64,000 nt of DNA. Origin: Salinibaculum litoreum. Its GTDB lineage: Archaea; Halobacteriota; Halobacteria; Halobacteriales; Haloarculaceae. Location: positions 1,550,001 through 1,614,000 of the forward strand of contig CP046866.1 in assembly GCA_009789175.1 (NCBI GenBank), given 5' to 3'. The notes beneath the pieces are model-generated. The model did no database searches, was not told where the DNA came from, and saw only the letters and a list, made by a program, of their open reading frames with translations. Of the stretch, positions 21,150 to 47,481 are shown piece after piece. Within the stretch, counting starts at the first letter, position 1; each line of letters starts with the position of its first letter. A program made the position numbers and the translations under genes.

Positions 21150-22310
21150 ATGGACTATGGACTAACTGACGAACAACAGCAGATCCGGGACGAAATCAGG
21201 CGGTTCGCCGAGAACGAGGTGGCGCCAGTCGCCAGCGAGTACGACCGTGCGGAGAAGTATCCACACGATGTCATGGACGAGGCAGCGAAGATGGGGTTGC
21301 TCGGGGCGAACATTCCAGTCGAGTACGGCGGTGCCGGCTACTCCACGCTCGAAACGGCGCTCATCACCGAAGAACTGTTCGCGGTCGACCCCGGCATCGG
21401 CCTCTGTATCACCTCGGCGGCCTTCGGCGCGGAGGCGCTCATCGGCTTTGGCACCGAAGAGCAAAAGGAGGAGTACCTGGAGCCAGTCGCGCGCGGCGAT
21501 GCCATCATGGGTACTGCAATCAGCGAGCCCGATGTCGGGTCCGACGTGTCGTCTGTGGCGACCAGAGCCGAGAAAGACGGCGACGAGTGGGTCATCAACG
21601 GGAGCAAGATGTGGATCACCAACGGGTCGGTGGGCGATTACTTCGTCGTGTTGGTCCAGACCGACCCCGAGGCAGCGGGCCGGTACAACGGCTTCTCACA
21701 GATTATCGTCGAGGCCGACCGCGATGGATTCACGGCCGAGAAGATCACTGGCAAGATGGGTATCCGCGCCTCGGATACCGCCGAGTTGCTCTTCGATGAC
21801 GTGCGCGTCCCCGAGGAGAATCTGGTCGGCAACCGTGGCGGTGGCTTCCTGCAACTGATGCAGTTTTTCGACGAGACCCGAACGGCAGTGGCCGCACAGG
21901 GTGTCGGCATCGCCAAAGGGGCCACCGAGCGCGCACTGGAGTACGCACAGGAACGCGAGCAGTTCGGTCAGTCCATCTCGGAGTTTCAGGCCATCCAGCA
22001 CAAGCTTGCGGATATGCACACGCGAACGGAGGCCGCCCGTCAGCTCACCTACAAGTCGGCCTGGAGCGTCGACGAGGCCGAAGATCAGTTGACGATGCTC
22101 GCCTCGATGGCCAAGGAGTTCGCCTCACGGGTGGCCGTCGACGTGGCCGACGAAGCGGTCCAGATTCACGGCGGCGCGGGCTTCGTCGACGACTTCGATG
22201 TCGAACGGTTCTACCGGGACGCCAAGATTACACAAATCTACGAGGGGACGACCGAAGTGCAGAAAAACATCATCGGCCGGGAACTGCTCGGCAAGGGGAC
22301 GTTTAGCTAA
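21150..22310 (+). CDS. Acyl-CoA dehydrogenase
   Basis: The 386-aa FAD enzyme performs the first step of beta-oxidation, converting acyl-CoA to trans-2-enoyl-CoA. Full-length family features are present: the N-terminal helical domain (LTDEQQQIRDEIRRFAENEV), the FAD strand GTAISEPDVGSD, the middle domain WVINGSKMWITNG, the QAIQHKLADM helix, and the C-terminal FYRDAKITQIYEGTTEVQK containing the catalytic Glu. It is divergent from the hydroxyacyl-CoA dehydrogenase/enoyl-CoA hydratase. Chain length specificity cannot be told. A different paralogue (375 aa) lies at 52991-54118. Confidence 0.92.
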   Translation: MDYGLTDEQQQIRDEIRRFAENEVAPVASEYDRAEKYPHDVMDEAAKMGLLGANIPVEYGGAGYSTLETALITEELFAVDPGIGLCITSAAFGAEALIGFGTEEQKEEYLEPVARGDAIMGTAISEPDVGSDVSSVATRAEKDGDEWVINGSKMWITNGSVGDYFVVLVQTDPEAAGRYNGFSQIIVEADRDGFTAEKITGKMGIRASDTAELLFDDVRVPEENLVGNRGGGFLQLMQFFDETRTAVAAQGVGIAKGATERALEYAQEREQFGQSISEFQAIQHKLADMHTRTEAARQLTYKSAWSVDEAEDQLTMLASMAKEFASRVAVDVADEAVQIHGGAGFVDDFDVERFYRDAKITQIYEGTTEVQKNIIGRELLGKGTFS

Positions 22311-22344
22311 TCGGAGAGACAGGGCTGCAAGCGGGCAAGCGTCG

Positions 22345-23886
22345 TCAGTTGTTGCTCACAGTGCGCATCTCTTCCTCGCCAGATTCGCCGAGCCTGACCG
22401 TCAGCTGCTTGCTTCCTGCCCCGTCAAAGGCCGCTTGCCAGGTCAATTCGACCGACTGTGTCGTGCCAGCGGCAACTGAGACCGTGCGATTCGTGGTCTC
22501 GTTCCCATCGACGAGCAGGAACACGGGTTGCTCGACCGATTGGTCGCCGGCGTTCGTCACGTCGGCTGTGACGGAGACCTCTTCACTCTCGTTTGCATTC
22601 GTCGGATCGACTGAAACGCCGTCGAGGCTCAACTGCGTCGTCTCGGTTCCGTCGGTAGAGTCATCCGACTGCCCATCGGTCGTGGAATCGTTCGACTGCT
22701 CGTCGCCCCCATCGGGGGTACCCGGCGGCGAGGCCGTGGCCGTAGCACTCGTATTCCGCCACTCGACAGCTATCTGGTAGGTGGACTCGTTGATACTGTC
22801 GTTCAACGAGAACTCGAAGGTCCCGTTCTCGTCTATGTTGACGGTGGTTTGATTTTCAACGGTGGTATTCTCGTCTCCACCCTCCATGAGGGTGTAGTTG
22901 AGGGTCTCCGTACTGTTGGTGACTCTGGCATCGTTCTCCGAGAGGTTCCCGGTGACCAGAATGGTCCGTTCACCATCGATCGTCGTCATATTAGCCGAGA
23001 TATCGACCGCAAGAGACGCATCAGCAGGGCCGCCAGTACCGCCGCCACCGCCGTCTCCTGCCGCCCCGCAACTCATTCCCGGGAGGTCGCCAACCACCGG
23101 AATCGAGACACCCAGGAAACACGCACCGTATGTCCCGGCGACGAGAAGCACGACGAGTCCCACGGCGGCGGCTGCAGCGAACATCCGCATCGGGAGCCCG
23201 AACGGGCCTGAAGGCTGGGACTGGCCGTACATCTCCTCCCCGTCAGCGCCGAACAGTTGCTGGCGTTCCCGTCGTTTTCGCTTTTTCATCTCCTCGATGC
23301 GCTGTTCGGTGTCACCCAGCAGCGCCAGCCCGCTGTGTGTGCCTTTCTCGATGACGAGGTCGTACGTGGACAGCGTCGAGCTTTGAGCGTTCTCTGCGAT
23401 AGCGATGTTTGGCCTGTCGATTTCTTTCAGGTACGTGCGCAACAGTTCGGTGGCCTCCTCGTAGGAAGCGACGCCGACGCGGGCCTGCTCACCGTCGTTG
23501 ACGAGGTCAGCGATGTCTTGCCGGGTCGTCCGGTCCCCCGGAGCAGACCCGAACGAGCCACTGCTCAGACTCTCGAAGACCGCTGTGTCGTCTTTCGAGG
23601 TGACCAGTTCCATCCCGTGCTCGTTTCGCATGTGGTCTTCGATGATGCCATGGAAGTTGCTGAGGTCCCCTTCGTCGGTGGTTTCGAGCACGCCGTAGTA
23701 CTGTTCCGAGCGACTCGCCGACGAGTCCCGGGCCCGGAAGAAGGCCACGAACGTGTATGTCGACCCGACCGTCTCCAGCGCGACCCGGACCCCGCTGAAG
23801 AAGAAGTCCTTGATCTCCTCGTCCGTGTCGCCGACGCCGCCTCCAATAGGCACGCCCTGTGAGTCATAGATGGTCAGATCGCTCAT
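22345..23886 (-). CDS. Single-pass membrane protein: cytoplasmic head, glycosylated extracellular tail with CARDB-like domain
   Basis: The 513-aa protein starts at ATG 23886, one base after the upstream GTPase stop. Residues 1-205 are a soluble alpha/beta region without a recognised fold, ending in the basic stretch EEMKKRKRRERQQ. One membrane helix follows at about 234-258. The rest is a Gly-rich linker, an extracellular beta domain with many N-x-S/T sequons (about 285-370), a Ser/Asp/Thr-rich spacer, and a C-terminal CARDB-like Ig-fold (about 418-505: LDGVSVDPTNANESEEVSV). The positive cluster before the helix places the head in the cytoplasm. It is the third gene of the tubulin-GTPase operon and probably links the cytoplasmic partners to the surface. 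Confidence 0.75.
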   Translation of the reverse strand: MSDLTIYDSQGVPIGGGVGDTDEEIKDFFFSGVRVALETVGSTYTFVAFFRARDSSASRSEQYYGVLETTDEGDLSNFHGIIEDHMRNEHGMELVTSKDDTAVFESLSSGSFGSAPGDRTTRQDIADLVNDGEQARVGVASYEEATELLRTYLKEIDRPNIAIAENAQSSTLSTYDLVIEKGTHSGLALLGDTEQRIEEMKKRKRRERQQLFGADGEEMYGQSQPSGPFGLPMRMFAAAAAVGLVVLLVAGTYGACFLGVSIPVVGDLPGMSCGAAGDGGGGGTGGPADASLAVDISANMTTIDGERTILVTGNLSENDARVTNSTETLNYTLMEGGDENTTVENQTTVNIDENGTFEFSLNDSINESTYQIAVEWRNTSATATASPPGTPDGGDEQSNDSTTDGQSDDSTDGTETTQLSLDGVSVDPTNANESEEVSVTADVTNAGDQSVEQPVFLLVDGNETTNRTVSVAAGTTQSVELTWQAAFDGAGSKQLTVRLGESGEEEMRTVSNN

Positions 23887-23887
23887 C

Positions 23888-25333
23888 TTACACCCTCCCA
23901 ATCCTCTCGAGCAGGTCGTCGTATCCGACAGTCATCACCGACCCGCTATCGTCCCGCATCGGTACGCGGTTGCCGTTGTCGTCGACTTTGGTCTGATAGT
24001 AGACGGGATGGATTGTCGTCCCCGCAGTTTCGGTAATCAGACTGTCGATGTTCTCGCTCTGTCGCAGCCGAGTGTTGACGAAGTCGGTGAACTCATCGTA
24101 GTACAGGTGTGCTTCGAGGCCGCGTTCCTCCTCGAACTCCTCTGCGAGGACATCCGCTTTCGTCGCGACGATCATCACGCCCTTCTTATCAGTGGCCTGC
24201 AAGATGCTGAAATACTCGGATATCTCCAGCGGTTCGTTGTTGGTAAACCGCTCGATGTCAACGACGAGCATCAGCGTATCCGCACCGCTGACGCCCTCTG
24301 CGAGCCGCTTCAGTGTGGTGTCCATGTCCTCGTCGGGCACAGCGCCAGTGAGAGCGTCCGGCAGTCGGTCGAGATACTCGCCGGCGTAGTCCATCGCCGA
24401 CAGTTGGATATTGGTGGGGAACACCGAGCCATGGACGTACTGGAACTGGAGTTGCTTGAGTTCACCCCGACCCGTCGCCTCGACAATCCACTCCGTCTCC
24501 TGTCTGTCGAGCGCTTCGAGCATCGACATCAGGTCCTGGCTGGGTTTCAGCGGCGTGTTGCTCTCGTCACCGCGGGACATCTCGAGTGCTTCGAGATACG
24601 CGCCGATCAGGAAGAGGCTCTTCCCCGACGCGCGCGGACCCAGGATGAAGAATTTCTTCTCTGCGTCGTATTTGACGAACTGCCGGAGCGTGACGACGAA
24701 CAGCCCCGCAACGGCAACGTCGAAGACCAGCCCCTCGGTGTTGAGCCCGTAACTACCCGACGACTGCGCGAGTGCGACCCCATCGGACGAGACATCGAGG
24801 ATTGGCGGATACTGAATGTGCAGTTCGAGCAGCCCGATGACCGTCAGCAGCGCCAACAGCAGGTACAGCCCCTTCGAGGCGCGCCGGAACTCAAGTGCCT
24901 CCGCAGTCTGAATCTGTAGCAGGTCCCGACCCCCGCCAATCAGGAAGCCGAGTCCGGCACCGACAAGCAGGATTGGAAACTGGGCGACCAGGTCGACGTT
25001 TGGCGACCCCAGCAGGAGTTCCTGTGACTGAAGCACCAGCAGGCCGACACCGGTCCCCAGCCACAGCAGTGCTGCCTGCCATCGCTTCTTCGGGTCGATA
25101 GTCATCAACACGAGGAACCCGAGAAACATCCCGAACGCGGAGATGCTGATGGCCTGATGGCCCAGCCCGACCAGCAGCCGCAACTGAATCAGTTCCCGTG
25201 TCAGGTGTGCCTCTTCCCACCCCTGGGCCAGCATCTGGGAGAGCGGCTGGGCGAGAATGAGGATGAGCGCAAAATACGCTATGAGTTTGATTTTCTCTCG
25301 GCTCTGTTGGATGTATTCGACGAAGTTGCTCAT
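23888..25333 (-). CDS. Multi-spanning membrane GTPase (P-loop, SRPRB/Ras-like)
   Basis: The 481-aa protein has about six hydrophobic helices in residues 17-217, then a cytoplasmic P-loop domain: Walker A GPRASGKS (232-239), a G3-like DYAG (315-318), a strand LMLVVDI with the following IERF, and a G4-like TKAD (391-394). TKAD in place of NKxD still fits guanine specificity. The fold order resembles small TRAFAC GTPases such as SRPRB or the domains recently called double-GTPases, but I cannot decide which. A tail of about 45 residues contains TAGTTIHPVYYQTKVDDNGN. It is 17 bases after the tubulin-like gene and 1 base before the CARDB gene, so all three are one operon. Confidence 0.75.
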   Translation of the reverse strand: MSNFVEYIQQSREKIKLIAYFALILILAQPLSQMLAQGWEEAHLTRELIQLRLLVGLGHQAISISAFGMFLGFLVLMTIDPKKRWQAALLWLGTGVGLLVLQSQELLLGSPNVDLVAQFPILLVGAGLGFLIGGGRDLLQIQTAEALEFRRASKGLYLLLALLTVIGLLELHIQYPPILDVSSDGVALAQSSGSYGLNTEGLVFDVAVAGLFVVTLRQFVKYDAEKKFFILGPRASGKSLFLIGAYLEALEMSRGDESNTPLKPSQDLMSMLEALDRQETEWIVEATGRGELKQLQFQYVHGSVFPTNIQLSAMDYAGEYLDRLPDALTGAVPDEDMDTTLKRLAEGVSGADTLMLVVDIERFTNNEPLEISEYFSILQATDKKGVMIVATKADVLAEEFEEERGLEAHLYYDEFTDFVNTRLRQSENIDSLITETAGTTIHPVYYQTKVDDNGNRVPMRDDSGSVMTVGYDDLLERIGRV

Positions 25334-25350
25334 ACTACTTGCCTCGAAAA

Positions 25351-28300
25351 TTAGGTGTGGTCGATGACGTCGATGTAGTCGTCAAGCAGGTCACTGACGA
25401 TGTCTTCCTCGTTACGGAGGAAGAACTCGACATCGTCGTCGTTCTCCATGTTCAACAGGTCATTACGGCGGACGTAGTACCCCTCTTCGAGCCCGTAGCT
25501 GTGGTGGACGAGGATGTTATCGCCGAGTTCCTCGCGCTGGTGCTCGTATCCCGCGTGGTACCCGTCGGCCTGCACCACTTTCCGGATGTTGTCGAGGAAC
25601 ACGCCCGTGATGAACACCGACAGCGAGATGTCCCAGGGTCCGCCCATGTCCTTTTGCCAACTCGTGAACGGACTCTCGACGCGTTTCCCGGCACCGCCGA
25701 GGTCGTATGCACCACGGAACGTCTCCTCGAAATCGAGGATGTCGGGGTCGATGTCACTGATTGCAGGACTGCTGACCGCGAGCCTGACTTTCAGTTCGTC
25801 GTACCGTGAGGTGCCCTTGCTCAGTTTGCGCCGCCGGAGACCGGCGTATTGCTGGTTCCGGGCGTTTTTGGCCATCTCTTCGAGGTTGCTCCTGAGACGC
25901 TGGTTCTCCTCGTCGTTTGCGAACATGTCGCTGTCCGCGACGTTGGTGCTGCCCGTCGCCCGGAAGATGTCGTTCGGTTTGATGTTCTTGACGTAGACGT
26001 ACTCCTCGTCGCCGGTCGAGACTGTCTGGTCCGCGTTCTGGTCGTGTTTCGAGAGTCCCTGTTCGAACTCCGAGTTCTTCGCGCTCCAGCTTTCACGCAG
26101 GTTGTTGACCTCCTGGAACAGTTGGATTGCCGGGCGGTAGACATCGGCCTGGCGCTCGACATCTTCGAGTTCAGCTTCCAGTTCGGCTTTGCGCTGTTCG
26201 ATGTCGTCGGTCTCCCCGACAGCCTGTCGGAACACGTCACGGACGACCTCCCGGATTCCCTCGACGGTCGGCGCGTCGCTTGTCAACTCGGTGTCCAGCC
26301 GGTCCTGCTGTGACTGTGATACGGTATCGACCCGGGCCTGGAGTGACTGGATTACCGACGTTTCCGTTTCCTGTTTGGTCCGCTCGACCTCCTCGATGAT
26401 GTGATGTCCGTCGTATTTGACCGAGGCACTGAAGTTGCCACCGGGCGGTGACACTTCGAAGACTGCCTTCTCGCTCAGCTTGTTCCGCTGCATCCGGAAG
26501 TCCTTGTGCGCGTCGTTTTTCTCCTCCTCAGTGTTGCTCTTCCAGGGCAGGATGCTCTCGCCGAGACTCTCCTCCTGGTTCATCACGAGGTACGCCTTCT
26601 TCGTGCGCTTGAGTTCGGACAACGACGACGTGATGGACCGGCGTTCGTCCGCAATGTCGATACCGAGCCGTTCCAGGTCGTCCATCAGTTCGTCCGTGGT
26701 GGTGACGACTGGCGTCTCGTCGATTCCTTCGAGTTCGGACTCGGACGCGGCGTTGATGACCTGCTGGCAGAACGAATCGAGTTCGGACTGCAGGGTCGAC
26801 TGCTTGGAGCGGATGGCGTTCAGGTCGATGCGCTGCAGCGTCTGGATATCGGTCTCGACATCCCGCATGAACTCCGACGTGCGGCGCTCGATTTCGGCCG
26901 ACTGCTCGTCCCGGAGCGCTTCGAGTTCCTCGATGGTCTCTTGCAGTTCGGATTCGACACGGTCGCGCTGGTCGTCGAGGTCCTCCAGACGGGCTTCGAG
27001 TCGCTGGAGTTTCACCCCGGGGGCGGCACCGGAGTCGCCGATGCCCATCAGATACTCGACGGCGTCCCTGACGCGGTTGTCGTCGATTACCTTGCGCCGT
27101 TCGAGTATCTCCTTGCGGAAGGAAATCAGTGAGAGGTCCTGTTCGAGCACCTCCGCGAGGTGTTCGTCTATCGTATCGACGAACGTGCCCGCCTGCTGGC
27201 CCGTCGTGTCTACGGCACGAATGGACCCGGAGATGATATCGATCTGCTCCATCACGTCCTCGGCCTCGTCTTCGGCGTCGGCGATGATCTCCGAGAACAT
27301 CTCGACGGAGAGATATTCGAGTTCCTGGAACAGGTCGAAATCGAGCCAGGTCTTTACGTGTTCGAGTCGCTCTTCTAAGTCCGTGCGGTCGAGGTCACGG
27401 AGACCGGACTCGACATCACCGCTGTCGTAGTGTTTCGTGAGGAAGCGGTCGATTTTCGAGTAGATTTCGTCCTCGGTCTGGAGCGCCTCCTCCTTGGTGT
27501 TCAGGACGTCACGGAATCGTTCGCGGGCCTCGTTAATCGCCTCGACGTTGTACCGCAGAACCTGTGGAATCCCGATGGTAAAGGGTGCATAATCCGGCGT
27601 GTCCGCAAACGGGTCCTCGAGGTTCTGGGTGTTGTAATAGGACGCAAGAAGATAGATGACCGCCTCGTCGAGTTCCTGAAGATACTCCTGTGTCTGGATT
27701 CGGTTACCCGTCTTGCCGTCGAAATCGGTGGGGTCGATAGGCACCAGGACCCGGTCTTTGAACACCTGGTCGTTCGCCAGCGCGTTGTACTCGAGTTCCG
27801 AAAGCGCAGCGAAGGCGTTGGTATTCTCCTTGATGCCCTCCGTGTGGTTCGGGAGAATACCGAAAAGCGTTATTTCGGCGGTTCGCTGGCGTTCCTGGAG
27901 ATGGCGAGCCATGTCGATGAGGATGCCGGAGCCAGTCCCGCCACCGAGCCCGGCCAGAATCGCTACTTTTCCTTTCTGGGGCAGGTCGATATACGAGGAG
28001 ATCTGGTCGTCTTCGGCGTATGCCTTGTAGTAAATCGCCTTCCCGAGGCCGCGTTTCCGGACGACGCCTTTCGCAAAGTCCAGATTCTCGTTGATATGGT
28101 GTTCCTTTATCCACCAGTTCTCTTCGTCCATCCCGTTGCCCGCCGCGATACGGGGGACTGCCTCGTCACCGAGCAGGTCGATACTCCCACTCAGGTGAAT
28201 ATCCTCGGTAATGAGTTTGTACTCGACGTCGATACTCCCGGTTCGTCCGTCCCTGGATTCCCGGAGTTCCGCCTCCTTTTCGTTTATCCGTTCGCGTATC

Positions 28301-28485
28301 TCCCGTATCGTCTCTCGGTCCTCGTTCTCTTCACCCTCGGCGGTGTCGATAATCGTAACGGTCAGTGACGGTGGATTCGGCCGCGGCTCCAGAAGGTCCT
28401 CCAGCACCCAATCCGACTGGAGAAGTTCGAGCGCGATTGCCTTGCCAGCCCCGCCGACTGCAAAGATTCTGTCCGGAAAATTCAT
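25351..28485 (-). CDS. Very large tubulin/FtsZ-superfamily protein
   Basis: The 1044-aa protein starts at ATG 28485 (MNFPDRIFAV). Residues 8-20 hold a glycine-rich T1-like loop (AVGGAGKAIALELL). Residues 177-190 hold the tubulin signature LAGLGGGTGSGILI. A T6-like NTNAFAALSELEYNAL (221-236) follows, so the guanine-nucleotide-binding half is present. No clear catalytic T7 loop (NxDxx[DE]) is visible. Residues 490-570 and about 760-800 are long charged coiled coils; the C-terminal 150 residues (LAVSSPAISDIDPDILDFEE onward) are a separate folded region. It is soluble. It differs from FtsZ and CetZ (about 350-400 aa) in size and resembles the Pfam 'Tubulin like' group. It starts a three-gene operon with a membrane GTPase. 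A TATA-like GGTATAAG lies about 40 bases upstream. Confidence 0.8.
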   Translation of the reverse strand: MNFPDRIFAVGGAGKAIALELLQSDWVLEDLLEPRPNPPSLTVTIIDTAEGEENEDRETIREIRERINEKEAELRESRDGRTGSIDVEYKLITEDIHLSGSIDLLGDEAVPRIAAGNGMDEENWWIKEHHINENLDFAKGVVRKRGLGKAIYYKAYAEDDQISSYIDLPQKGKVAILAGLGGGTGSGILIDMARHLQERQRTAEITLFGILPNHTEGIKENTNAFAALSELEYNALANDQVFKDRVLVPIDPTDFDGKTGNRIQTQEYLQELDEAVIYLLASYYNTQNLEDPFADTPDYAPFTIGIPQVLRYNVEAINEARERFRDVLNTKEEALQTEDEIYSKIDRFLTKHYDSGDVESGLRDLDRTDLEERLEHVKTWLDFDLFQELEYLSVEMFSEIIADAEDEAEDVMEQIDIISGSIRAVDTTGQQAGTFVDTIDEHLAEVLEQDLSLISFRKEILERRKVIDDNRVRDAVEYLMGIGDSGAAPGVKLQRLEARLEDLDDQRDRVESELQETIEELEALRDEQSAEIERRTSEFMRDVETDIQTLQRIDLNAIRSKQSTLQSELDSFCQQVINAASESELEGIDETPVVTTTDELMDDLERLGIDIADERRSITSSLSELKRTKKAYLVMNQEESLGESILPWKSNTEEEKNDAHKDFRMQRNKLSEKAVFEVSPPGGNFSASVKYDGHHIIEEVERTKQETETSVIQSLQARVDTVSQSQQDRLDTELTSDAPTVEGIREVVRDVFRQAVGETDDIEQRKAELEAELEDVERQADVYRPAIQLFQEVNNLRESWSAKNSEFEQGLSKHDQNADQTVSTGDEEYVYVKNIKPNDIFRATGSTNVADSDMFANDEENQRLRSNLEEMAKNARNQQYAGLRRRKLSKGTSRYDELKVRLAVSSPAISDIDPDILDFEETFRGAYDLGGAGKRVESPFTSWQKDMGGPWDISLSVFITGVFLDNIRKVVQADGYHAGYEHQREELGDNILVHHSYGLEEGYYVRRNDLLNMENDDDVEFFLRNEEDIVSDLLDDYIDVIDHT

Positions 28486-28663
28486 GGTAGGCTGTGAATA
28501 CCGAAAGGGTCGATTGGTCTTCACTTATACCTTTCCACCTGTTTTCAATTCTTGTAGTCCGTCAGGTCCGGAGAGACGGGGATTTTCGCCTGGCAGTAGC
28601 CGTGGTTCTGCTGGCTACGGTTCCGCGAGCTGTTACAAATTAATCATGAGTCCCGCGCACTGC

Positions 28664-31600
28664 TCACAGTACGTTTTCGAGGTCAGTCGCGAAGTCGTAC
28701 ATGGACGTGTACCGGTCAGCAGGGTCCGTTTCGAGCGCCCGTTCGATGACCGCAGAGAGGTCAGCAGGGACATCAGCGTTCGTTGCCAGTGGCTCGATCT
28801 CGCCGGCGGCAATCGCAGTTCGGTCAGCCGTGACGGGGGGCTCACCCGCCAGGGCGTGATAGGCCACTGCCCCGAGCCCGTACACGTCAGTCTCAGTCCC
28901 CGGCCGACCGTACGTGTCGTCGAACTGTTCGGGGGCGGTGTAGGGCGTGAGTTTCACCGCATCGGTTGCCTCGCGAACGCAGCGGTCCAACCCCCACTCG
29001 CCGACGGTGGCTGCGGGTGTCTCAGACGTGTCCTCCACCCAGAGACACTCCGGTGACAGGTCGAAGTGGTGGGCATTGTACAATCCGACGTTTCGAATCC
29101 CCTCTGCAGCATCGGTCAGGAGGGCAACAATATCCTCGGTCGATAGGTCTGCCATCCGCTCGTCCAGACTGACCGCGTCCGCTGGCGCTGAAACCGCTAT
29201 CCAGGGCTGTGGGTCATCACCGCGGGCATGCACACTCACGACGTTGGGGTGAGTGTGTGCGTTGTACCAGCCACTGACGGTCTGTGAGAAGGCTGCCTGT
29301 ACCGACTCGTCGTCGTGGTCGAGTGTGTGGACCCGAACTGGCTCGTCGGAGTCCTCATGTTGACCGCGGTAGGTTGTCACGGCACCGTCCTCGGTCTGTG
29401 CCAAATCATGCAGCGACGCGACGGCACACTCTATCTCCGGGCGGTTGCGCTGTCGCGTCGTCGCCGATGTGTCACCCGCCGTCTGGCTAGTGCGTGCCGT
29501 AGAGTTCCCAGTGTCCGTCGACGAACCCCAGCCAGTCGCCTGGCCTTCGCGGGCGAGTCCGACGAGTCCACCGTCGGTGCCCAGATAGAGCGCGTCACTG
29601 GTCGGCGTGACACCTGTTATCCGGTCCGAGACGGAGACACGCCAGCGCTGGCCGCCGCCTGTCGCGTCGATGCCATAGACGGTCGTTCTCCCACAGAGAT
29701 ACAACGTATCCTCGACGACGGCGGATCCGGTCATAGCAGACTCATCAACAATGGTCGACCAGCGTTCGACACCGTCGGTATCGAGAGCGACGACGGTTCC
29801 TTGACCCCCTGCAACCCACACCGTCTCCGACCCGGTGACGACACGTTCGGGCCCCAAGACTCCGGTATCGACTGCCCAGTGTTGACTGCCATCCGTCGCC
29901 TGAAGCGCGCAAACGGTGCCACTCTCCGTGGCGACATAGATGGACCCGTCGACTGCTGCCGGGGCGGTAGTCGGTGTCTCCCCGAGTTCGAACCGCCAGA
30001 CCTCGTCACCCGTCGCTGCAGAGAGCGCAACGACGCCACTCCGAGTCGTGACGAGGACGTGGTCGTCAGTGACTGTCGGGCGGTGGTCGACCACATCGGA
30101 CAGAGAGTGTTCCCACTGTGTGGCTCCACTTTTTGCATTTGCGGCGAGGACGGTTCCTGACTGACAGGCCACGTACAGCGTATCGTCGACCGGAGTGACC
30201 GCGCCAGCGACCGGACTGTCGACCGTTTCTGTCCACAGTCGGGTGCCCGTCTGTCGTGAAAAGGCAGCGACACGGCGACCACTGGCGACGTAGAGCGAGC
30301 CAAACTCGACAGCGGGGACGGTTGTCGGTTCCTCGCCAACCGTCGCTTCCCACTGGGCGCGGCCCGATGTGGCGTCACAGGCGACGAGAGTGCCGTTTGC
30401 CAGCCCACTGTACACAACCTCGTCCGTCAGCGTCGGCTGACTCGCCCCGGTGGTCCCGCTTGTCCACCGTGTTGTGGCATCCGGCCGAACAGACTGACAC
30501 TCCGGTGCGGCCGCTGTGTTTGTTGGTCCCCTGCCCGGATAGGGCCACTCCTCCAGCGACTCGAGTTCTGCGGTGGTCCCCAGGCGTCTGTAGGCGATGG
30601 CACCCACAGCGGTTGCGCCGACAGCGAGAGCAGCGATACCGCCGAACAGCGGCAGTGGCTCCGAATCTTGAGGCGTCGCATCGTCGCGTTCGGGTTCCGC
30701 ATCTCCGCCAGCGGGTTCGTCACCGGCACTCGGGGTCTGTGTGGCTGTGCTTTCGCGTGTCGGTTCCGCTGTCGGTGAAGTCTGAGATACCGGTTCGGCG
30801 ATGCGGAGTGGCTCTTCGATACTCCTGCCGTCGTCGACGTAGACACCGTGACTGTAGGTCCCACTGCCCAGCGCAGTGGTATTGATATCCAGGAATGTGA
30901 CCGTCTGGCGCTGGCCTGGCTGCAGCGTCACCTCCTGAGTCGTGACTGCGACTCCACCGATTCGGTATTCGACGGTCTCAGTAGCTGTCGCGGTCCCGTC
31001 GTTGCTCACCGTCGCCGAGACGGTGATGGAATCACCGACGACGACCCTGTCAGTGTCGACGGTGAGGTCTTCGACAGTGAGGTCGGCACCACCCCCGCGG
31101 ACACTCACGGCTGCCGACTCGGTTATCGGTGTCCCGTCTGCCCGGTATGGCTGGTCCGTCTCGGCGTCGAACTCACCATCGCCGTTCGAGTCCCGGAACG
31201 GGACGGCAGTCAGTGTCGTGTCCTGCTGTATCGGCTGGTCAAGGGCAATCCGGAGGTCCGTCACTTGCGTGTTGCGAGGGAGAGACTCCGAGACGCCGAT
31301 GAGCTGATTCGACCGAGCGGACCGGATGGCGACGAACCCACCGCCCCCCAGTTCTACGTTCGAAACTGTGACAGCCTCACCAACGATTTCCTGGTCGGGA
31401 AACGCGAGTGACTCCACACGACCAGCATCGATTATCTCACCGTCTCCGGTTGCGAGTTCCGTCCCCGGGGAGTGTGCCACCCTGAGAGTGAACGTCGAAC
31501 CGGCGGTGTACGAACTGAAATCCGACGAGAGCGCCCAGGTACCATCTTCCTGAACCTCGACAGTGGCCGGGCCGATGATAAACTGGCTCGGTGACCCGCG

Positions 31601-32914
31601 CTTGGACTGAATCCGGGCGACCAGTTCCGTCCCGGGTGCGAGCGTCGAGGTCCCTGTAATCGACTGTCCCGACTCCGGTGCGACTTCAATCAGTCCCGAA
31701 GGCTGTGTCTCTATCGTCGCGTTCCGTTCTCTGACGGCAAGCGCCGTCGACGCTGTCTCGTCACTGAACGCGCCATTCTCCGGTGCGACCAGACCGAAGT
31801 TCGCGGCGTTTCTGGCGTGGGACACGACGGTGAACTCGCTGACGTAGGACTCCCCTGTCACGAACTCGGCTGAGTCGGCCATCTCACTGGTGTCGTGGAC
31901 AACGTAGTACGTATCCGCCGACGGTGCCGGGATGACATCGACGCCCTCGGTACCAGTGCTTCCGTCAGTGGTCCCGGACGGCGCGAGAACGGTTGTGAGC
32001 GGGGTATTACTGAGCTGTCGCGTGCTCAGAGAGTGATTGAGGAAGGCGACGTTGTCCTCGGCAAGGGAGAGAAACGCCTCCGTGTGGGTCTTGCCGGACT
32101 GAACGCGGCCGGTGAAGGCACCTTCGAGTCCGTCGGCAGTAATCGCGGCCACGAGGTACTCCCCGTCGGCCAGGTCAGATGTCTCTGTAAGCTCACCAGC
32201 GGCGGCTGCCTGTCGTATCTCCTCCTGGCTGTTCAGCGATGCATCCTCGGGGGCTCGAAACAGGCGCAACGAGGGAGACTCCCTGGTTTCGAGAGACATG
32301 ACCGAGACATCTGTCGGTGACGCCTGGATGGCCCCGTCACTCGCTCTCCCCGGCGAAACGGCGAGTTCGTAGGTGCCTGCTGTGAGGATGTGGGTGCGCC
32401 CGGGAGCGATTGCCGTCGTGACGTTGGTCCCGACGACGCGACCGGAACGAGCGGCCCACTGGCCGTTGCGCTCGTCGTACTGCGAGTAGGTTCCACGCTC
32501 GACGGTCGCCGACGGATTGTTACTTGCGCGCCCGTCTGCGCGGTAGGAGTTGAACTGGACGGTGACAGTGCCATCCTCATCCGTGTCCTCGACAGTGACA
32601 TTTGAGAGATAGGCCGCTCGGGAGCTTCCAAGAGTCACTGTCGCGTACTCAGTGTCGTCTACCTCCAGTGTGATATTCACGATGTCCCCACGCTGGTCGG
32701 GCTCGACAGCGCGAAACGCAGCGTTCCCGGAGACATCGGCAGCATCGACAGCAGTATCAACCGACGACACAGCGGAGTCGTCGACCGACGGGGAGTGTGC
32801 CCCAGCATCGGCACCTGGGTCTCCAGAGACAGTTCCCAGGGCACCCCCTGTCGAAACAACCAACAGTAGTCCAACGGCGAGAAGAGTCGTCTCGATGGAG
32901 TCGATATCCGTCAT
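28664..32914 (-). CDS. Surface-anchored protein with CARDB domain, membrane helix, PQQ-type beta-propeller and C-terminal pseudokinase
   Basis: The 1416-aa protein starts at ATG 32914 with a secretion signal (about 8-27). The extracellular part (to about 640) contains Ig-like segments and ends in a CARDB unit (GGADLTVEDLTVDTDRVVVG). An STE/D/P-rich linker leads to a membrane helix (GGIAALAVGATAVGAIAYRR, about 688-708). Then come about seven PQQ-like propeller blades (repeat form SGxxxWxxxxG..., about 740-1100) and a kinase-like domain in the last 250 residues with HHFDLSPECLW, TAPEQFDDTYG and ETDVYGLGAVAYHALAGEPP. The beta-3 Lys is replaced (VRVHTL), HRDLKPEN reads HFDLSPEC and DFG reads EWG, so it is probably a pseudokinase. 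It lies 178 bases upstream of the tubulin-like gene on the same strand. Confidence 0.8.
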   Translation of the reverse strand: MTDIDSIETTLLAVGLLLVVSTGGALGTVSGDPGADAGAHSPSVDDSAVSSVDTAVDAADVSGNAAFRAVEPDQRGDIVNITLEVDDTEYATVTLGSSRAAYLSNVTVEDTDEDGTVTVQFNSYRADGRASNNPSATVERGTYSQYDERNGQWAARSGRVVGTNVTTAIAPGRTHILTAGTYELAVSPGRASDGAIQASPTDVSVMSLETRESPSLRLFRAPEDASLNSQEEIRQAAAAGELTETSDLADGEYLVAAITADGLEGAFTGRVQSGKTHTEAFLSLAEDNVAFLNHSLSTRQLSNTPLTTVLAPSGTTDGSTGTEGVDVIPAPSADTYYVVHDTSEMADSAEFVTGESYVSEFTVVSHARNAANFGLVAPENGAFSDETASTALAVRERNATIETQPSGLIEVAPESGQSITGTSTLAPGTELVARIQSKRGSPSQFIIGPATVEVQEDGTWALSSDFSSYTAGSTFTLRVAHSPGTELATGDGEIIDAGRVESLAFPDQEIVGEAVTVSNVELGGGGFVAIRSARSNQLIGVSESLPRNTQVTDLRIALDQPIQQDTTLTAVPFRDSNGDGEFDAETDQPYRADGTPITESAAVSVRGGGADLTVEDLTVDTDRVVVGDSITVSATVSNDGTATATETVEYRIGGVAVTTQEVTLQPGQRQTVTFLDINTTALGSGTYSHGVYVDDGRSIEEPLRIAEPVSQTSPTAEPTRESTATQTPSAGDEPAGGDAEPERDDATPQDSEPLPLFGGIAALAVGATAVGAIAYRRLGTTAELESLEEWPYPGRGPTNTAAAPECQSVRPDATTRWTSGTTGASQPTLTDEVVYSGLANGTLVACDATSGRAQWEATVGEEPTTVPAVEFGSLYVASGRRVAAFSRQTGTRLWTETVDSPVAGAVTPVDDTLYVACQSGTVLAANAKSGATQWEHSLSDVVDHRPTVTDDHVLVTTRSGVVALSAATGDEVWRFELGETPTTAPAAVDGSIYVATESGTVCALQATDGSQHWAVDTGVLGPERVVTGSETVWVAGGQGTVVALDTDGVERWSTIVDESAMTGSAVVEDTLYLCGRTTVYGIDATGGGQRWRVSVSDRITGVTPTSDALYLGTDGGLVGLAREGQATGWGSSTDTGNSTARTSQTAGDTSATTRQRNRPEIECAVASLHDLAQTEDGAVTTYRGQHEDSDEPVRVHTLDHDDESVQAAFSQTVSGWYNAHTHPNVVSVHARGDDPQPWIAVSAPADAVSLDERMADLSTEDIVALLTDAAEGIRNVGLYNAHHFDLSPECLWVEDTSETPAATVGEWGLDRCVREATDAVKLTPYTAPEQFDDTYGRPGTETDVYGLGAVAYHALAGEPPVTADRTAIAAGEIEPLATNADVPADLSAVIERALETDPADRYTSMYDFATDLENVL

Positions 32915-32939
32915 ACCAGTGATAGTGACTGTTTCTCTA

Positions 32940-32959
32940 GGCAGTTTTTTCAAACTGCC
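32940..32959. promoter_or_regulatory. Perfect 8-bp inverted repeat upstream of the pseudokinase gene
   Basis: The arms GGCAGTTT and AAACTGCC are separated by TTTC. It lies 26-45 bases before the ATG at 32914, where the TATA element would normally be, so it could be an operator for a repressor. As a hairpin it is too weakly GC-rich to call a terminator. Confidence 0.4.
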
Positions 32960-33267
32960 GGTAGCATCACTGCAGAGCCACTTCACAGCATCCCCGTCCG
33001 TGTGACGAGGCTACCACCGGGTCACGCCTCAGTCGCCGGTGTCCCCGACTCGGCTGTAAGGGAGTGGCTCCGACAGCGGACCGAGACCCGAGCCAGGGCA
33101 CACTCGGAGATGGTGCCCCCACTTGAAAGGCCACATTATGACGGGACCACACTGACATGGACCACCGGCGAATGTACTGATGCCGGGTGCGTACGACTGT
33201 CGATATAGAACCCGGCCGCTGGGGACTCACGGCCGCTGACCACGGCCGTCGCTTTTCAACGCCTGTC
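32960..33267. other. Gene-poor intergenic stretch
   Basis: No protein-coding gene is convincing here. A plus-strand frame at 33002-33208 (68 aa, GTG start, containing VREWLRQRTETRARA) has weak codon bias and no recognised motif. A minus-strand frame covering the region is Arg/Ser-rich shadow sequence. The stretch separates the pseudokinase gene from the membrane protein at 33290 and probably holds the former's promoter. Confidence 0.4.
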
Positions 33268-33290
33268 AGCTGCGGGCCCGTCCCGCAGCT
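33268..33290 (-). terminator. Strong hairpin at the end of the membrane protein gene
   Basis: A perfect 9-bp stem AGCTGCGGG/CCCGCAGCT with loop CCCGT begins at the last base of the stop codon of the upstream gene (minus-strand direction). No T-run follows, so it may block exonucleases or assist termination rather than act as a classical terminator. Confidence 0.5.
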
Positions 33291-34732
33291 TAGATGTACC
33301 CAAACAGCGGCATGACCAGACCAGTCACCCAACCGAGGATACCCAGGACCAACAGCCCAGCACCGCGTTCGTCGACACGGGTCGAGCCGGCTGCCAGCAG
33401 CCCAAGCGCCACAGCCAGTCCGACCCGGTGCAAGACGAGCTGAACCGGCACCGATGCCACGCCCAGACCACCAAAGTCCAGTACGAACGACCCCGCCAGC
33501 CCGGCGAAGGCAAATCCGAAGGCAGGCAGCGCTTTCAGGGGCGGCCCGAGTCGGCTGGCGACACGCTGAAGGCGGCTAAACCGCGAGGTAGCGCCGAATG
33601 GCTGGGCCAGGATGGCTGCCAGCAGCGGGAGCCCGAGCGCGATTGCGGGATACAGAACCGCCAGGAACACTCGCGGGTCGACATCCTGAATGTTCGATTC
33701 GAGGACGATACCGGCGCTCCTGACCCCGAGGTACAGCCCTCCGAGAACAGTGGCCATGACGAACCCACGGACGTTCGAGCGCACCCACGAGAACAGCCGC
33801 TTGCCCTCGTTGTGGAGCGAGCGGTGCGTTTCCCGAGTGAACAGACTCATCAGGACGAGTGCCACCAGCCCGGGTGCGAGCCGAATCTCCGAGAGCCAGC
33901 CATCGTTCCACCCGCGGTTGATGGCGTGATACTCACGGCTCACCGACTGGACGTAGGGCTGGTCCAGAAAGTCCGATTCCAGAACGTTTCGGGACCGCTG
34001 GATGTCGGTTACCGTATGCCGCATCCGGAACCAGTCCCAGTACTCCTGATGAATCTGGATAGCTGTATACTCCGTCTCAGGTGTCGTGTACGCCCGGATA
34101 TGGTATCGACTGCCGAAGTAGTCGCCGGCGTGAATCTGGTAGGCTTCGTCGACCCAGCCGGCTTTGCCGCCGCGGGGCCGAGCGTCGATGTAGGAGTATC
34201 GCGTCGAGCCGTGGGCGTCGTTCCACTCGATGACCGACTCGTCGACTTCGACTGGCTTGGGCACTGACTCGTTTTCCGACGCGTTGGCCTTCTCGTCGGG
34301 AATCGGTGTCGGGGCGTCTAGTCCCTCCACGTCTGTCGGGTTGTCGTTGCTATCGTTCGCCGCTGTCGGCGATTCCGTCGCCGTGAGTGAGGGCGTTACG
34401 GTCGCGTTGCCAGCAGTTTCGTTGTCGGACTCGTTTGCGGGTTCGGTCAACTCCCAGTCGAGATTCGTCTGTTCGGTGAGCGCACGTTTGACGCGTTCGT
34501 CTTCGCCGACGATGACGAGATTCGTCGCCAGCGTCCGCTGTTGTGTCGTCGTGTCCCGCGCCGTGTACGGCCACAGATAGCTCCCGTTGTCGAGTGGCTG
34601 GACCATCTGTCCCCGGTTGGGCGTATCACCGTCTGCTGGGTTCGCCGTCGGCAACGGCAGCCCACCGGCGAGCAGGTACGTCCCACTGAGCAAAACAAGC
34701 CCGAGCACGAGCAGGCGACGGCGGGTGAACAT
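33290..34732 (-). CDS. Multi-spanning membrane protein with large extracellular N-terminal domain
   Basis: The 480-aa protein begins with a signal-anchor helix (RRRLLVLGLVLLSGTYLLAG). An Asn/Asp/Thr-rich extracellular linker with several sequons (about 95-160) follows. Then comes a compact domain (about 165-265: YSYIDARPRGGKAGWVDEAY, SRYHIRAYTTPET) and about six helices in the C-terminal half. The SRYHIRAY element recalls LssY_C-type domains, but I am not sure. A strong hairpin follows its stop. It is upstream, on the same strand, of the pseudokinase and tubulin genes and may belong to the same functional neighbourhood; the 375-base gap argues for a separate transcript. Confidence 0.65.
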   Translation of the reverse strand: MFTRRRLLVLGLVLLSGTYLLAGGLPLPTANPADGDTPNRGQMVQPLDNGSYLWPYTARDTTTQQRTLATNLVIVGEDERVKRALTEQTNLDWELTEPANESDNETAGNATVTPSLTATESPTAANDSNDNPTDVEGLDAPTPIPDEKANASENESVPKPVEVDESVIEWNDAHGSTRYSYIDARPRGGKAGWVDEAYQIHAGDYFGSRYHIRAYTTPETEYTAIQIHQEYWDWFRMRHTVTDIQRSRNVLESDFLDQPYVQSVSREYHAINRGWNDGWLSEIRLAPGLVALVLMSLFTRETHRSLHNEGKRLFSWVRSNVRGFVMATVLGGLYLGVRSAGIVLESNIQDVDPRVFLAVLYPAIALGLPLLAAILAQPFGATSRFSRLQRVASRLGPPLKALPAFGFAFAGLAGSFVLDFGGLGVASVPVQLVLHRVGLAVALGLLAAGSTRVDERGAGLLVLGILGWVTGLVMPLFGYI

Positions 34733-45213: not shown

Positions 45214-47481
45214 TCAGTGGAACGTCCGGCCGACCGCGTCCTCGTCGGTCGCGGGTTCGGCGGTATCGAACTGCTGTTCGATTTCCTCGTATTTCTCTTT
45301 GGTCTCCTCGGTGACGCTTGGGGTGACCTCTTTGAGGGCCTGCTCGAAGTGGTCGGCAGTCACGCGGACGTTGCCCACGCTGGTGTCGACATCCTCTGGG
45401 TCGACGCTGTGGATGAACTCCCGCGTCGCGGCCATCGAGGCCTCGCGGGCGACCGCCTCGATGTCGGCACCGACGTAGCCCTCCGTTCTGGCAGCGAGGT
45501 CGTCGAGGTCGATGTCGTCCGCGAGCGGTTTGTCGCGGGTGTGGACCTCGAAGATTTTCCGGCGGGCTTCCTCGTCGGGGACTGGCACGTGGATGTGCCG
45601 GTCCAGCCGACCGGGCCGCAACAGTGCGGAGTCGATGAGGTCCGGACGGTTCGTGGTGGCGATGACCACCACATCCTCCAGTTCTTCGAGGCCGTCGAGT
45701 TCCGTCAGCAGTTGGGAGACGACCCGCTCGCCGACGCCGGAGTCACCGGAGTGTTGGCCCCGTTCGCCCGCGATGGAGTCGATTTCGTCGAAGAAGACGA
45801 CGGTCGGGGCGTTCGCGCGGGCCTTCTCGAAGACCTCACGGACGCCTTTCTCCGACTCGCCGACGTACTTGTTGAGCAACTCCGGCCCCTTGATGGAGAT
45901 GAAGTTACTCTGGGCTTCGTTGGCGATAGCTTTGGCAAGCAGCGTCTTTCCGGTCCCGGGCGGGCCGTACATCAACACGCCCTTGGCTGCCTGCATGTCC
46001 ATCTGCTGGAAGACCTCGGGGTACTCCAGGGGCCACTGGATGGCCTCCCGGAGCCGCTCTTTGGTGTCTTCCAGCCCACCGACGGAGTCCCAGGTCACGT
46101 CGGGCACTTCGACGAAGACCTCACGGAGCGCGGAGGGTTCGATGCCCTTCAGCGCCTGCTTGAAGTCCTCCTCGGTGACCTCCAGTTTCTCTAAGGTCGC
46201 GGCGTCGATTTCGTCCTCTTCTAAGTCGAGTTCCGGCCGGATGCGCCGTAGGGCGTTCATCGCGGCCTCCTTCGAGAGCTGTTCGAGGTCAGCCCCGACG
46301 AAGCCGTGGGTGTTCTCGGCGTAGCGGTCGAGGTCGATATCGTCGGTGAGGGGCATCCCGCGGGTGTGGACCTGCAGGATTTCCTTGCGGCCGTCCTTGT
46401 CCGGGACGCCGACCTCGATTTCGCGGTCGAAGCGACCGCCACGGCGGAGTGCGGGGTCGAGTGCGTCGACGCGGTTGGTCGCGCCGATGACGATGACCTC
46501 GCCGCGCTCTTCGAGGCCGTCCATCAGGCTGAGCAGTTGGGCGACCACGCGGCGTTCGACATCGCCGCTGGTCTCGCCACGCTCGGGGGCGATGGAGTCG
46601 ATTTCGTCGATGAAGACCACCGCGGGGGCGTTCTCCTCGGCTTCCTCGAAGACTTCACGGAGTTGTTCCTCGCTTTCCCCGTAGTACTTGGACATGATTT
46701 CGGGGCCGGAGATGTCCGTGAAGTAGGCGTCAATCTCGTTGGCGACGGCACGGGCCATCAGCGTCTTCCCGGTGCCGGGCGGGCCGTGCAGCAGGACGCC
46801 TTTCGGCGGCTCGATGCCGAGTTGCTGGAACAGTTCGGGGTGGCGCATCGGCAGCTCTATCATCTCCCGGACCTGTTCGAGTTCGTCGTCGAGGCCGCCG
46901 ATGTCCTCGTAGGTCACGTCCGGGGTCTGGCGCTCCTCGCCACCGGGCTGCCCGCCGGCAATCTGTTCGGCGGGCTGTTCGGAGACGTTGACCTCCGTCG
47001 AGTCGGTGACGACGACGGTGCCGCTCGGCTCGGTGCTTGCTATCTTGAGCGGAATCTTCTGGCCCTGCATCGAAGACAGCGGCCCGAGCCCGAACGAGAC
47101 GGGGACGGTCTGTCCTTCAGCGACGGCCTGTCCGCTCAGGTTCTGGCGAATCATCGGGCCGACGTTGCCCCGAACCCGGAGGTTCTGGGGCAAGGCGACC
47201 GTAATCGAGCTTGCCGGCTGGACATCCGCAGGCTCGACCTCGACGGAGTCGTCGATACCGGTGCCAGTCTCCTGACGGAGTTGGCCGTCGATGCGGACGA
47301 CGGCGCGGCCGTCGTCTTCGGGGTAGCCGGGCCAGACACGCGCGACCGCACGGCCCTCGGACCCCTCGATGACCACGTAGTCGCCGTTCTCGACGCCCAT
47401 CTCCTCCATGGCGCGCCTGTCGACGGCGGCGAGTCCGCGGCCCGCATCCTTCTGCTTGAGGGGTTTGACAGTAAGTCTCAT
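45214..47481 (-). CDS. Cdc48/VAT-type AAA+ ATPase
   Basis: The 755-aa archaeal p97/VCP homologue unfolds proteins for the proteasome and other machines. It has an N-domain (1-185; double-psi barrel and four-stranded barrel), D1 with Walker [15 protein letters not shown] and Walker [16 protein letters not shown], and D2 with [14 protein letters not shown] and [15 protein letters not shown]; both arginine-finger regions ([29 protein letters not shown]) are present. A coiled-coil C-terminal extension ends GRTFH, without a Hb-Y-X proteasome-docking motif. Its ATG overlaps the upstream Hsp20-like gene by four bases, so they are translationally coupled. Confidence 0.95.

Follow-up and report, generated by a model that had tools for sequence, protein, structure and literature searches.

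A conserved haloarchaeal gene trio of an FtsZl1-family tubulin relative, a membrane GTPase and a receptor-like protein, with a possible role in membrane shaping

Three adjoining genes of Salinibaculum litoreum, contained in a stretch of 64,000 nucleotides that was analyzed as a whole (the window), encode a large tubulin-superfamily protein (T), a membrane GTPase (G) and a single-pass receptor-like protein (M), and form a module that is real and conserved, yet not new as a system. The FtsZl1 family, to which T belongs, was founded in 2010 by Makarova & Koonin on Huta_2051, a protein of 1051 aa from Halorhabdus utahensis, and membrane remodelling was proposed for it in the same paper (PMC2875224). 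An earlier sequence-only reading of the window had called the trio a candidate undescribed system and had stated that FtsZ and CetZ have no membrane GTPase as a partner, as if this held for known relatives of tubulin; both statements were incorrect, because the family, its archaeal pairing with a membrane GTPase and the membrane-remodelling idea had all been published (PMC2875224). New here, relative to the FtsZl1 literature, are M as a receptor-like third component and a probable link of G to the double-GTPase (DO-GTPase) family. In the interpretation that we prefer, with a confidence that is evenly balanced, the receptor M of this haloarchaeal FtsZl1 system would switch G, G would recruit a T polymer to the membrane, and the membrane would be shaped.

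The three genes lie on the minus strand with intergenic gaps of 17 and 1 bases (Table 1), and the ORF coordinates agree with the layout originally read from the letters. An alternative GTG start would lengthen the T ORF to 28524. The GC content of the trio region is slightly below that of most of the window. A promoter scan of the window was of the sigma-70 type only and was not informative for archaea.

Table 1. Coordinates and predicted features of the trio, its upstream neighbour and G loci without T (window positions unless a locus is named)
Feature	Coordinates	Strand	Description
T	25351..28485	-	1044 aa from ATG at 28485; tubulin-superfamily protein, FtsZl1 family
T residues 1-312	27550..28485	-	tubulin/FtsZ-like nucleotide-binding fold; GGAGK (T1-like), GGGTGSG (T4-like)
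T residues 314-817	26035..27546	-	long helical, coiled-coil region; AlphaFold2 helices up to 64 residues
T residues 830-1044	25354..25998	-	C-terminal mixed alpha/beta domain; invariant G961, D965, Y976, G1002, R1007
G	23888..25333	-	481 aa, membrane GTPase
M	22345..23886	-	513 aa, single-pass receptor-like protein
M residues 1-212	23251..23886	-	conserved cytoplasmic head; element order b-(b)-a-bbb-aa, then alternating a/b
M residues 242-260	23107..23163	-	single membrane helix (hydropathy)
M residues 261-513	22348..23106	-	extracellular part, 14 N-x-S/T sequons, varies between relatives
Upstream neighbour, probable partner	28664..32914	-	surface domains, CARDB, membrane helix, PQQ-type propeller, kinase-like domain; Pfam PQQ_2, CARDB, Pkinase
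T-less G loci	L104:5558-10987, L098:6111-11160, L099:2262-8865		ATPase with N-terminal helical region; Vps4_C matches in L098, L099

T matched Pfam Tubulin_2 (PF13809, 40.3 bits) and Tubulin (PF00091, 34.5 bits), both over the cut-off, and Tubulin_2 was matched in all 35 T relatives scanned. The GGGTGSG loop occupies residues 181-187, and G179, G181-G183, G185, G187, D191, N223 and A224 are invariant across the 35 relatives. An AlphaFold2 model of T, built from 35 relatives, had a mean pLDDT of 86, and a Foldseek search of this model against the PDB returned 188 matches at E <= 0.001, headed by CetZ2 of Haloferax volcanii (E 1.3e-5, probability 1.00) and followed by FtsZ, gamma-tubulin and TubZ. 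The length, glycine loop, tubulin motifs and coiled coils first noted were confirmed, and the tubulin fold that had been placed in residues 1-350 was found there by AlphaFold2 and Foldseek. Sequence and structure prediction thus give T a tubulin fold to which a large helical part is added. Haloarchaeal CetZ and FtsZ have this fold in common with T, whereas T is three times longer and is paired with G; the other four of the five tubulin-family genes in the whole genome are of ordinary FtsZ/CetZ size (395-412 aa).

FtsZl1 proteins were described as having an FtsZ-like domain, a coiled coil and a C-terminal domain, with a diverged GTPase (membrane-associated in archaea) and kinases encoded nearby, and the founder locus, Huta_2050-2056, as containing three kinase genes and three hypothetical genes (PMC2875224). 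The window's T is 62% identical over its whole length to the T gene of a putative H. utahensis locus (G074:C1), where T, G and M stand in this order with kinase-like genes as neighbours. We infer, with gene size, gene content and neighbours among the grounds, that this is the Huta_2051 founder locus; since it holds a run of T-G-M orthologs, the trio itself would lie within the founding locus. T resembles FtsZl1 in its size of about 1050 aa, its N-terminal FtsZ-like domain, long coiled coil and C-terminal domain, the membrane-bound neighbour GTPase typical of archaea and the nearby kinases. Unlike the published expectation of a mostly helical C-terminal domain, that of T is mixed alpha/beta in the AlphaFold2 model, and unlike the majority of FtsZl1 loci, which are mainly bacterial, the trio has no vWA protein beside it (no match in the eight genes around it), as expected of archaeal members.

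G carries a P-loop (GPRASGKS), DYAGE and TKAD, with membrane helices at about residues 17-220 and the GTPase domain at about 225-481. The assignment as a membrane GTPase stood, whereas of the approximately six membrane helices once counted, hydropathy gave five clear peaks and a borderline sixth. G232, G237, K238, D315 and G318 are invariant among 35 G relatives; the Walker B glutamate occurs as DYAGE or similar in most active relatives, and E319 is nearly invariant. DO-GTPase2 was matched by 18 of the 35 relatives at E up to 0.1 (best, 5e-8), and the relatives match DO-GTPase1 as well; the window's G alone reached E 0.1 against DO-GTPase2, under the curated cut-off (families tested, PF19993/PF19975). 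Sequence and structure prediction place G as a membrane-embedded GTPase that is probably related to the DO-GTPase family. Six G paralogues (L100, L101, L105, L031, L033 and L034), which form a well-supported clade, have no P-loop. Such a paralogue, with the same membrane helices, stands directly after T in a distant clade, and an active G is found near the P-loop-less paralogue everywhere except at some less completely seen loci, so that the two look like an active/inactive GTPase pair.

In M, the single membrane helix, the cytoplasmic head and the sequons of the outside part were recovered as first described, and the head has no N-x-S/T sequon; the CARDB domain once assigned to the end of M was not, being a significant Pfam match in 2 of 31 M relatives and not in the window's M. 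The outside domains of M relatives include carboxypeptidase-regulatory-like, Ig-like, PEGA, YtkA and CARDB domains, and the length of M across relatives ranges from 269 to 1100 aa. In the close set of relatives, identity was 92% for T, 93% for G, 90% for the M head and 53% for the M outside part. Because the head is conserved almost like T and G, and the outside part is not, the pattern of M is receptor-like. Conserved residues of M include F50, R51, R59, Q62 and Y64. The AlphaFold2 model of the head was confident (pLDDT 94.4, pTM 0.90). None of its matches to PDB structures was significant (best E, 0.014); TagF was at rank 1, and ranks 2 to 5, likewise non-significant, were taken by the GTPase regulators DENND10, the folliculin complex, C9orf72-SMCR8 and the Lst4 longin. 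The strand/helix order of the head would fit a longin domain with an alternating alpha/beta part after it, and a search with the head sequence against solved structures gave nothing credible. The longin/DENN likeness suggested by the model is a lead, not a result.

For gene-order comparison, 54 regions were collected and gene-called. T was found in 12 of the 146 species of the window's family, and G in 52 of the 391 genomes of the class. G follows T immediately and on the same strand for 43 of 45 T genes, at a spacing of -14 to 293 bases (mostly within 30), and M comes next in 34, giving haloarchaeal T-G-M blocks; this order is far from chance. Named genomes were scanned with the T alignment as the query (a single T protein as the query gave no match), and T was detected in Halovenus, Halorientalis, Haloterrigena, Halorubrum, Haloferax profundi, Halorutilus and Halosimplex; its carriers beyond the haloarchaea were Methanoperedenaceae, Methanosarcina spelaei and Methanogenium marinum. 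Directly after T, the methanogen-related contigs again encode a P-loop protein with 4-5 membrane helices and, next to it, a protein with one helix; in two of the four contigs the M profile matched this last protein. The gene order put forward earlier as a check is conserved, with neighbours kept and the arrangement recurring in methanogens. A gene of 259-293 aa with two membrane helices was also observed directly upstream of T in methanogen-related contigs (L130:3365-4144, L131:4172-4978, L135:690-1571 and L137:1901-2686); it had no Pfam match, and its identification as SLATT or vWA was dropped, as it matched neither.

The kinase-like domain of the gene upstream of T has altered catalytic motifs (HFDLSPECL and EWGL). 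Kinase-like or propeller genes recur beside other T-G-M loci, and most of the kinase-like ones are also motif-altered. In a genome of the same genus (G142), both flanks are kept and none of the four genes between them (T, G, M and the kinase-like gene) is present; in the comparison of L115:6180-9403 with window positions 22310-33290, an IS-type transposase and a PAS histidine kinase occupy the trio site. The trio site is a variable site between conserved housekeeping genes. At window positions 33290-34732, a membrane protein of 480 aa, from a family without a name, was observed; it has a 62% identical counterpart at the corresponding position of the same-genus genome, and was found in no collected locus beyond that genome.

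T is missing from ten G loci. In three of these (L098, L099 and L104), G is adjoined by a Vps4-like AAA ATPase and a helical protein of 207-225 aa, and in L104 the genes for the helical protein, the ATPase, G and an M-like protein overlap as one operon. The ATPase-adjoined G genes without T fall in two separate parts of the G tree. The same pair of ATPase and helical protein occurs in L122 without G and M, and the association with G is therefore suggestive only. An ESCRT-like replacement of the tubulin at the T-less loci is possible; the helical proteins are not claimed as ESCRT-III, having no such match in Pfam or the PDB.

According to the preferred mechanism, the outside part of M would sense the state of the cell surface (S-layer, glycan, contact or attack), and its head would act as an on/off regulator of G. 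GTP-bound G would then recruit T to the cytoplasmic side of the membrane or nucleate it there, T would assemble in a GTP-dependent manner via its tubulin-fold part, and its helical arms would scaffold or locally bend the membrane, with the adjoining kinase-like propeller proteins as further regulators. This mechanism is favoured by the tubulin fold of T, by the invariant P-loop and DxxG of G in the active clade and their fusion to membrane helices, by the near-zero spacing and constant order of the 34 haloarchaeal blocks together with the similar trio in Methanoperedenaceae, Methanosarcina and Methanogenium, and by the receptor-like rates of M, the confident fold of its head, whose best though non-significant matches are mostly longin/DENN regulators of GTPases, and the Vps4-like neighbours at the three T-less loci. 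Counting against it are the non-significance of the longin/DENN likeness, the small number of Vps4-like neighbours and the E value of the window's G against DO-GTPase2. In addition, the T6-H7 elements required for canonical filaments could not be identified in FtsZl1 (PMC2875224), and T may therefore polymerise differently or not at all. The membrane-tethered, GTP-driven assembly envisaged from the sequence, which was to remodel, sense or defend the envelope, agrees with the literature in its outline and was too broad to serve as a mechanism. A further reading makes M a prokaryotic transmembrane receptor whose longin/DENN-like head directly controls G as a portable switch, driving a tubulin polymer at most loci and a Vps4-like ATPase with its helical partner at a few T-less ones; this seems rather doubtful. 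If true, it would link the archaeal cell surface by a signalling path to polymers that shape membranes, with components familiar from eukaryotic membrane traffic. The ArvA-ArvB-ArvC operon of Haloferax is likewise haloarchaeal and has a GTPase with an effect on the membrane, there in vesicle formation, and differs in having a small soluble GTPase, DUF2073 and DUF2072 partners and no tubulin (PMC10927574).

The chief rival is a conflict (defence) role, in which the trio would belong, as a haloarchaeal branch, to the tubulin-containing, GTPase-centred conflict systems that Kaur et al. 2020 describe from actinobacteria and firmicutes (PMC7159879); an invader would trigger the GTPase switch, and the tubulin assembly would trap or kill. 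We consider this unlikely. In the published systems, tubulins occur together with DO-GTPases, membrane components and PEGA, YtkA and beta-sandwich domains, and such tubulin/DO-GTPase sets are counted as conflict systems (PMC7159879). The trio shares with them a coiled-coil tubulin, a GTPase, probably of TRAFAC type, with a Walker B glutamate (here DYAGE), membrane helices, two paralogous GTPases in many cases and extracellular beta-sandwich, PEGA or YtkA domains (PMC7159879); the matches of G relatives to both DO-GTPase families, the PEGA, YtkA, CARDB and Ig-like domains of M relatives, the patchy occurrence and the same-genus genome that lacks the genes at the same site fit as well. It differs from them in the absence of GAP1 and of any recognised FNIII domain (PMC7159879). 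GAP1-N2, a defining component, gave no match over the cut-off in 23 carrier genomes, with Corynebacterium glutamicum positive as the control, and was ruled out as the identity of the M head, which its profile did not match. T, G and M had no PADLOC match, ten genes on the flanks do not make up a defence island, a toxic effector was not observed, and the main clades of the G tree track taxonomic families, a pattern closer to vertical descent than to a mobile cassette for defence. A defence island was rejected on the same PADLOC result and the housekeeping nature of the neighbours. The PADLOC match of the kinase-like gene was set aside as a family cross-match, as was that of a Cdc48-type AAA ATPase (window positions 45214-47481) with high scores against IetA and TRIP13, which is regarded as ordinary.

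Pure signalling comes next, and is also judged improbable. Here T would be a large scaffold or signal output with no membrane remodelling, and the state of the envelope would be reported to the kinase-like/propeller neighbours. The receptor-like M and the kinase-like neighbours, many of them motif-altered, are in keeping with this, and transport or signalling was already suggested by a reviewer of the 2010 paper (PMC2875224); signalling alone, however, leaves unexplained a tubulin-fold protein of such size that is so highly conserved in the close set. A defunct tubulin relative in a relic operon, as the place of T in the most diverged branch of the superfamily (PMC2875224) might suggest, is very improbable and, for the T family, refuted by conservation, the glycine loop, N223 and other residues being invariant down to 22% identity and the long open frames and tight spacing being kept in many genera.

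No experimental study of any FtsZl1 protein was found in the literature. The trio is compact and has a copy in Haloferax profundi, which is related to Haloferax volcanii, a genetic model, and the preferred membrane-shaping mechanism is therefore directly testable. Few known tubulins are as diverged as the FtsZl1 proteins, and the trio joins two literatures with overlapping gene sets, that of membrane remodelling and that of double-GTPase conflict systems.
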